From a virus, in the IMG/VR virus record IMGVR_UViG_3300031565_000038, positions 1-56,586 of that record: a stretch of 56,586 nucleotides of DNA; one strand, 5' to 3'. The notes beneath the pieces are model-generated. The model made no database searches, was not told where the DNA came from, and saw nothing but the letters and a program-made list of their open reading frames with translations. Made by a program: the position numbers and the translations under genes. Below are positions 10,681 to 11,029 of the stretch, piece after piece (the stretch's first letter is position 1; each line of letters starts with the position of its first letter).

Positions 10681-11029
10681 AAAGGGTTACCGATGCAGCC
10701 CTGTACAAAACATTGAGTTGGTCAATTAATACTCTTAGAAACTTTTACCAGGGGTTTAAAAGAACTTTGCTTTTTACATTTTAATCTTTAAAGCGTAAGA
10801 ACTTTTAATTTTAACCTTTTTGCTTTTAACTTTCAGCGTTAAACTTTTCAAGTTTTTGCAGTCTTATGCTCTAACCATCTGAGCTAATTCCCCGACTTTC
10901 GTCTGGCGGAGAATACTGGAATCGAACCAGCGACACTAAGAACCCATTGCATGTTAGTTTAGCAAACCGGTGCTTTTCTAACCCTCAAGCAGGGAATTGA
11001 ATTTATGTTTTTCGCATCGGTATTCCTTT
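10681..11029 (-). ncRNA. Structured RNA carrying a circularly permuted tRNA
   Basis: About 350 nt with no protein gene. The two ends can pair on the minus strand: TACCGATGC (11022-11014) with GCATCGGTA (10696-10688), plus AAAGG with CCTTT after a two-base mismatch. Inside are a CCCT-GCTTG-AGGG hairpin (10994-10982), a TTAG/CTAA hairpin with an AGC/GCT inner stem (10981-10954), the permuted tRNA (10942-10855) and an A-rich 3' part with small hairpins. It lies between the 212-residue gene and a small regulator gene. Family unknown; I could not see group I intron core elements. Confidence 0.62.
10855..10942 (-). tRNA. Circularly permuted tRNA, anticodon GCA by the 5' half
   Basis: Transcribed first is the 3' half (10941-10904): TCTTA, GTGTC, T arm GCTGG-TTCGATT-CCAGT, ATTCTCC, G73, CCA. 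A 10-nt spacer GACGAAAGTC (10903-10894) follows. Then comes the 5' half (10893-10855): GGGGAAT, TA, D arm GCTC-AGATGGTTA-GAGC, A, TAAGA, CTGCAAA. The acceptor stem pairs 7 of 7 (one G-U at 3:70), the anticodon stem TAAGA/TCTTA 5 of 5, and the D and T arms fully. T8, A14, G15-C48, G18G19, T33 and T54T55C56 are all present. GCA would decode Cys, but G73 is not a Cys identity base. No processing is demonstrated. Confidence 0.72.

Follow-up and report, generated by a model that had tools for sequence, protein, structure and literature searches.

Why would a phage enclose a permuted transfer RNA (tRNA) in a long-range helix? The question was raised by the IMG/VR virus record IMGVR_UViG_3300031565_000038, whose whole 56,586 nucleotides (nt) are referred to here as the window. 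An earlier note on this DNA had proposed an RNA that holds both sides of the tRNA together, as would a permuted self-splicing intron making a tRNA circle for RNase P, and had considered that it might be a new structured RNA class. We found that all the features it had named are present, on the minus strand as are the surrounding genes, with the T-arm, acceptor stem, D-arm and anticodon stem all lying inside the helix. Comparison with relatives suggests, with a probability of roughly 0.6, that the region encodes a representative of a noncoding RNA that is widespread among phages and is transcribed from the 3′ end of a phrog_1491-family gene, likely a ribonucleoprotein scaffold, and neither a tRNA gene nor an intron.

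Structure and covariation of the RNA in the window

Six IMG/VR relatives of the phrog_1491 gene each carried an element of this kind on the 3′ side of the gene, and loci L031, L053, L055, L056 and L058 were added via pattern searches. In the resulting alignment of 11 homologues, the named structure was 94.2% paired, compared to 71.8% after shuffling and 44% with a one-column offset, and changes on both sides were found at 37 of the 49 pairs. The enclosing helix, P1, was 100% paired with 8 of its 9 pairs changed on both sides, and none of 500 shuffles reached any measure of the alignment. RNAalifold, run without a supplied structure, yielded P1, the helix P3, the tRNA arms and a covarying hairpin. 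The alignment of homologues for covarying pairs, which the earlier note had set as its own refutation test, thus revealed compensatory changes in the helix, and this strong covariation supports the claim that a long-range helix holds both sides of the tRNA together. The pairing proposed for the region ends was recovered (TACCGATGC at 11022-11014 with GCATCGGTA at 10696-10688); the outer AAAGG/CCTTT pairing that had been added to it exists but is not conserved. For the window sequence by itself, shuffles equalled or exceeded the helix score in 0.4% of cases.

Read along the minus strand, the order is TACCGATGC, GAAAA, a short stem region, a hairpin, TCTTA, the T-arm, ATTCTCC-GCCA, GACGAAAGTC, GGGGAAT, the D-arm, TAAGA, an A-rich tract, GCATCGGTA and a T run. 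Helix P2 opens before P3 and closes inside P3, so that P2 and P3 make up a core pseudoknot. The features, with the evidence for each in brackets, are as follows.

11041..11709, minus strand: phrog_1491-family gene, 222 amino acids, library name 'tail fiber protein', directly 5′ of the RNA (library and profile matches)
10677..11027, minus strand: complete structured RNA including the 3′ U-run (11-homologue alignment and covariation)
11014..11022, minus strand: P1 5′ strand TACCGATGC, then conserved GAAAA (sequence and covariation)
11005..11011, minus strand: P2 5′ strand AAAACAT, partner 10707-10713 (4 of 7 pairs with changes on both sides in the alignment; cross-phage test)
10972..10994, minus strand: pseudoknot PK1, CCC (10994-10992) with GGG (10984-10982) and GCTT (10990-10987) with AAGC (10975-10972) (alignment helices 3 and 4; cross-phage test)
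10951..10970, minus strand: hairpin with loop TGCTAA, conserved in the window lineage (RNAalifold alignment columns 62-79, compensatory at 3 of 4 pairs)
10937..10941, minus strand: anticodon stem 3′ strand TCTTA (alignment helix 5)
10915..10931, minus strand: T-arm GCTGG-TTCGATT-CCAGT (module comparison; alignment helix 6)
10908..10914, minus strand: acceptor 3′ strand ATTCTCC, with GCCA next at 10907-10904 (module comparison; alignment helix 7)
10894..10903, minus strand: cap loop GACGAAAGTC (GAC-GAAA-GTC) joining the acceptor strands (sequence; module comparison)
10887..10893, minus strand: acceptor 5′ strand GGGGAAT, 7 of 7 paired (module comparison; alignment)
10868..10884, minus strand: D-arm (module comparison; alignment helix 8)
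10862..10866, minus strand: anticodon stem 5′ strand TAAGA, pairing with 10937-10941 and connecting the module to the scaffold (helix 5, 5 of 5 pairs compensatory)
10754..10850, minus strand: A-rich tract of approximately 7-nt repeats, NTYAAAG-like (repeat counts)
10749..10753, minus strand: P3 5′ strand CCCTG, preceded by AAAC (covariation, helix 9)
10707..10713, minus strand: P2 3′ strand ATGTTTT (11-homologue alignment; cross-phage test)
10699..10703, minus strand: P3 3′ strand CAGGG, then CTG at 10698-10696 (covariation)
10688..10696, minus strand: P1 3′ strand GCATCGGTA, beginning within the conserved CTG (sequence and covariation)
10677..10683, minus strand: U-run immediately after P1, probable 3′ end or terminator (sequence; kept in some phages only)

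The hairpin at 10951..10970 pairs weakly in the window's own copy. A reading of GCTTGAGGGTTAGAAAAGC as a D-arm, which would have implied a second tRNA, was rejected: those letters build the second pseudoknot (PK1), both stems of which covary. ARAGORN returned 0 tRNAs in the window, and an Rfam scan of the window gave nothing at the gathering threshold. A pattern scan requiring the exact GAAA cap had no matches, this cap not being conserved, and the 18 matches of a scan of genome contigs were close to the chance expectation and by eye unrelated, mostly coding.

The scaffold across phages and its neighbouring gene

The findings above were extended to other phages. An RNA of 280–440 nt was found immediately 3′ of the phrog_1491 gene in T5, other Demerecviridae, Herelleviridae, Vequintavirinae, phages of Lactococcus, Vibrio, Pseudomonas and Erwinia, and many IMG/VR contigs. 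Its parts are the enclosing helix P1, the P2/P3 core pseudoknot, a second H-type pseudoknot near the 5′ side, a swappable domain, and A-rich 7-nt repeats before P3. In the first five cultured phages checked, which belong to different families (Jenst, T5_ev219, GAP31, BM15 and phiK7A1), an unannotated gap of 260–490 nt follows the gene. Among fifteen further phages that were read, T5 included, KLEB27-3 alone was clearly without the RNA and the AbTZA1 copy had diverged; a profile scan contributed 80 more loci. Of 108 regions sampled, some of them redundant, 93 showed the combined P3 and P1 signature 3′ of the gene; in most of the others it could be recognised by eye, CAG or CTA standing in for CTG.

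In 54 non-redundant elements, P1 was 77% Watson–Crick paired (about 91% with G-U pairs included) compared to 34.5% when partners were swapped between phages, and P3 occurred in 26 distinct versions, all from a signature search that maximises P1 and demands CTG after P3 and AA before it. Other measures were independent of these search criteria. A G follows P1 in 54 of 54 elements and GAAA in 36; across phages, P2 paired better than swapped partners (p = 1e-17) and the second pseudoknot better than shuffles (p = 2e-12); the fixed-column counts of the 11-homologue alignment are likewise independent. Rfam 15 holds no family matching the scaffold, in keeping with the suggestion that this may be a new structured RNA class, and no description of the RNA was found in the open-licence literature, subscription journals lying outside the search, so that an earlier description is possible. 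Collectively, these comparisons point to a large structured RNA in unrelated phages that is apparently undescribed.

The A-rich tract is periodic. Within the 150 nt upstream of P3, AAAG recurred at a lag of 7 in 63 cases, compared to 2.9 expected (z of about 36), at a lag of 14 in 68 and at a lag of 21 in 52. The unit is approximately NTYAAAG, with A at positions four and five in more than 90% of units, these having been selected with a scoring that favours A at both positions. A spacing of 7 nt suggests that each subunit of a bound protein would occupy one repeat unit.

The phrog_1491 protein occurs in 708 phage records. Its library name is a misnomer, having no backing from the gene's position beside tRNA arrays or from the helical model: in the AlphaFold2 prediction long helices are accompanied by a few short strands (mean predicted local distance difference test score 88.2). 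PHROG, Pfam and PDB searches with the protein returned DUF6847 and 3kdq only, both marginally; 3kdq, the sole solved relative (Foldseek E = 3.6e-3, Z = 10.8), has no assigned function. Foldseek and VIA-align otherwise matched the model to generic long helices, and no activity could be deduced from it. The same phage also encodes two radical S-adenosylmethionine proteins (window 6494-7363 and 29128-30138), the second a weak match.

The tRNA-shaped module and its variation

The tRNA-like part varied in how it was closed and attached. The loop joining the acceptor strands is UUCG in L031, L053 and L055, GAT in L025 and ATA in L027, and measures 5–9 nt without CCA in L024, L026, L056, L058, L072 and L146; in most members the acceptor is thus capped by a loop of 3–9 nt lacking CCA. 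An anticodon loop was recognisable in the window (GCA), L022 (GUA), L025 and L031, and was lost in L024, L027, L055 and L058. The L023 module, a tRNA-Leu whose anticodon arm is intact, is opened in, and attached through, its variable arm, and an unpermuted tRNA joined by its acceptor stem was found in L086, L115 and L129 by a detector and in L122 and L153 by eye. Across modules the tRNA types comprise GCA, GUA, UAG, GAC, GAU and UUG, with three modes of attachment. Taken together, the sequences indicate that the module is a tRNA shape and not a tRNA. They further indicate that it is a guest in the scaffold and that the enclosing helix is not there for the tRNA, because T5 and dozens of phages have this helix and scaffold but no permuted tRNA.

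Two neighbouring observations were made. In L031 an ordinary tRNA-Phe gene (5048-5121) begins directly after the U-run of the RNA, and a thaumarchaeal contig (L037) has two probably unrelated copies of TAGAAAAGCACCCAAATGCTAA, at 4029 and 7413, beside tRNA-like sequence.

Proposed role, alternatives and known systems

In the scaffold reading, the RNA would be transcribed from the 3′ end of the phrog_1491 gene, processed or terminated at P1, and would then accumulate, with P1 sealing the molecule and, where a U-run comes after it, ending transcription. As a stable scaffold, it could offer its 7-nt repeats to the helical phrog_1491 protein, or to another protein, for binding in register, and in phages having the tRNA-shaped module this might dock a tRNA-recognising host factor, a role reported for the YrlA module of Y RNAs. 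More tentatively, and with somewhat less than even odds, we picture a phage ribonucleoprotein in T5-like, SPO1-like, rV5-like and many other phages, in which the helical phrog_1491 protein coats the repeats of a pseudoknotted RNA in register, tRNA shapes (permuted, unpermuted and variable-arm) have been taken in repeatedly, and one lineage bears a module of Y-RNA type.

Several points weigh against the scaffold reading. The P1 and P3 percentages for the 54 elements are inflated by a search designed to maximise pairing, and shuffled whole regions or single sequences can score 41 points where the observed median is 42.5. The proposed binding between protein and RNA is deduced only from gene neighbourhood and repeat spacing. 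Finally, CCA is encoded in the window, L022 and L023, all members of the window lineage and the only ones to encode it, and at least two members have a plausible anticodon (GCA in the window, GUA in L022), so these three may retain a residual tRNA role.

Of the other explanations, the one that survives best, unlikely as it is, holds that the RNA is a true Ro60-binding Y RNA with which the phage steers the host's or its own Ro60 and PNPase. YrlA (RF02553) was the only Rfam family to recognise the module, at 28–48 bits (33.4 for the window, 48.2 at best, in L027), below its gathering score of 69; with the same model, YrlA-like RNAs beside Ro60 genes in Bacteroidota scored 28–40 bits, also below gathering. 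The module is thus as YrlA-like as the Ro60-linked Y RNAs of Bacteroidota. Furthermore, one Bacteroidota genome (L159, 1-3200) has Ro60, phrog_1491 and this RNA consecutively, as an operon, followed by tRNAs and stretches that resemble Y RNAs by eye, and a phage contig (L053, reverse complement, 8900-9420) joins 5′ parts of Y-RNA type, with TTACTTC motifs, to the 3′ half of this RNA via UUCG-capped tRNA-like modules, a hybrid that suggests recombination through the shared module. However, a Ro-site regular expression, GTGYYGTA..TTACTTCG, drawn from Ro60-adjacent loci and matching 17 of 30 of them (overlapping loci included), occurs in just one of 108 elements and not in that of the window; no Ro60 gene was found in the first 12 phage records or in 45 of 46 further ones, many of the records being fragments; and most members have no such module at all. 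In a separate observation, the phage contig L127 (G353, 2140-2820), which carries this RNA, also encodes a Ro60/TROVE protein at a distant position.

Somewhat less probable still is a decoy that would bind and occupy host enzymes that cleave or modify tRNA while infection proceeds. Some host defences are known to act by cutting tRNAs, and the varied tRNA types and three attachment modes look as though shape alone counts, but the anticodon loop, the target of most such nucleases, is missing in several members, and a decoy would leave the scaffold and repeats unexplained. We regard as equally doubtful a cis-acting 3′ untranslated region or complex terminator for autoregulation of the phrog_1491 mRNA: in almost every locus sampled, the RNA comes immediately 3′ of the gene, and a U-run follows P1 in the window and several relatives, yet two pseudoknots, repeats and a tRNA mimic are more than a terminator needs, the U-run is missing in many members (T5 and JSF12 among them), and in L055, a contig fragment, the gene does not stand immediately upstream of the RNA. 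The permuted self-splicing intron that would excise and circularise a tRNA for RNase P to open into a mature one is highly improbable and was rejected, in spite of the permuted arrangement, whose acceptor (7 bp) and anticodon stem (5 bp) are matched, and of the CCA and anticodons mentioned above, because an intron delivering a mature tRNA would not tolerate capped acceptors, lost anticodon loops or unpermuted and variable-arm modules on one scaffold, so that no intact exon is left in the relatives; dozens of phages have the scaffold and no tRNA, core motifs are absent, and group I and group II covariance models gave no match even at a permissive threshold with the native sequence order scanned.

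A structured RNA of about 340 nt, present in T5 and very different phage families, unmatched in Rfam 15 and almost invariably next to a single uncharacterised protein, points to an overlooked shared function in infection. T5 and Escherichia coli are laboratory standards, so its role is directly testable. The modules also show that the tRNA fold can be opened at the anticodon loop, the acceptor end or the variable arm and still be retained, and the tRNA-shaped guest connects these phage RNAs with the Ro60/Y RNA system.

YrlA is the first of the known systems with which the RNA was compared. Both have a permuted tRNA-like module with a capped acceptor stem and attachment through the end of the anticodon stem, but the phage RNA is three times longer, lacks the Ro-site motif, and has a P1/P2/P3 core, a second pseudoknot and a heptad tract without counterpart in the 114-nt YrlA model. 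The resemblance to Y RNA is limited to this one module, and the RNA is not classed as a Y RNA. GOLLD and ROOL are likewise large structured phage RNAs of unassigned function, often near tRNA genes, and the linker of GOLLD sometimes contains tRNAs (PMC12286853). Neither Rfam model gives a match, however, and the phage RNA is about half their length, accompanies one protein gene and has 7-nt repeats. The skipping-rope RNA (RF02924) occurs in the same gap in Brevibacillus phage Jenst (L059, 3661-3738), between the phrog_1491 gene and this RNA, but is a separate local motif just 5′ of P1 (at about 3740) and is absent from the window. Transfer-messenger RNA (tmRNA), including the permuted two-piece form (RF04321), also has a tRNA-like domain opening at the anticodon-stem side into a large pseudoknotted RNA, whereas the phage module has a full D-arm, and no tag reading frame was noted, with no separate search made for one. 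The tmRNA models of Rfam scored at chance level (12.6–13.3 bits against gathering scores of 47–84) and ARAGORN found 0; both a two-piece tmRNA and a deletion between tandem tRNAs were rejected on the full D-arm, the matched covarying acceptor strands and the lack of Rfam support. Permuted tRNA genes are known from red algae and archaea, where the 3′ half stands before the 5′ half with a short intervening sequence. The module shares this order and its short intervening sequence but differs in that its acceptor is usually sealed without CCA, and in that it lies inside a larger conserved RNA.
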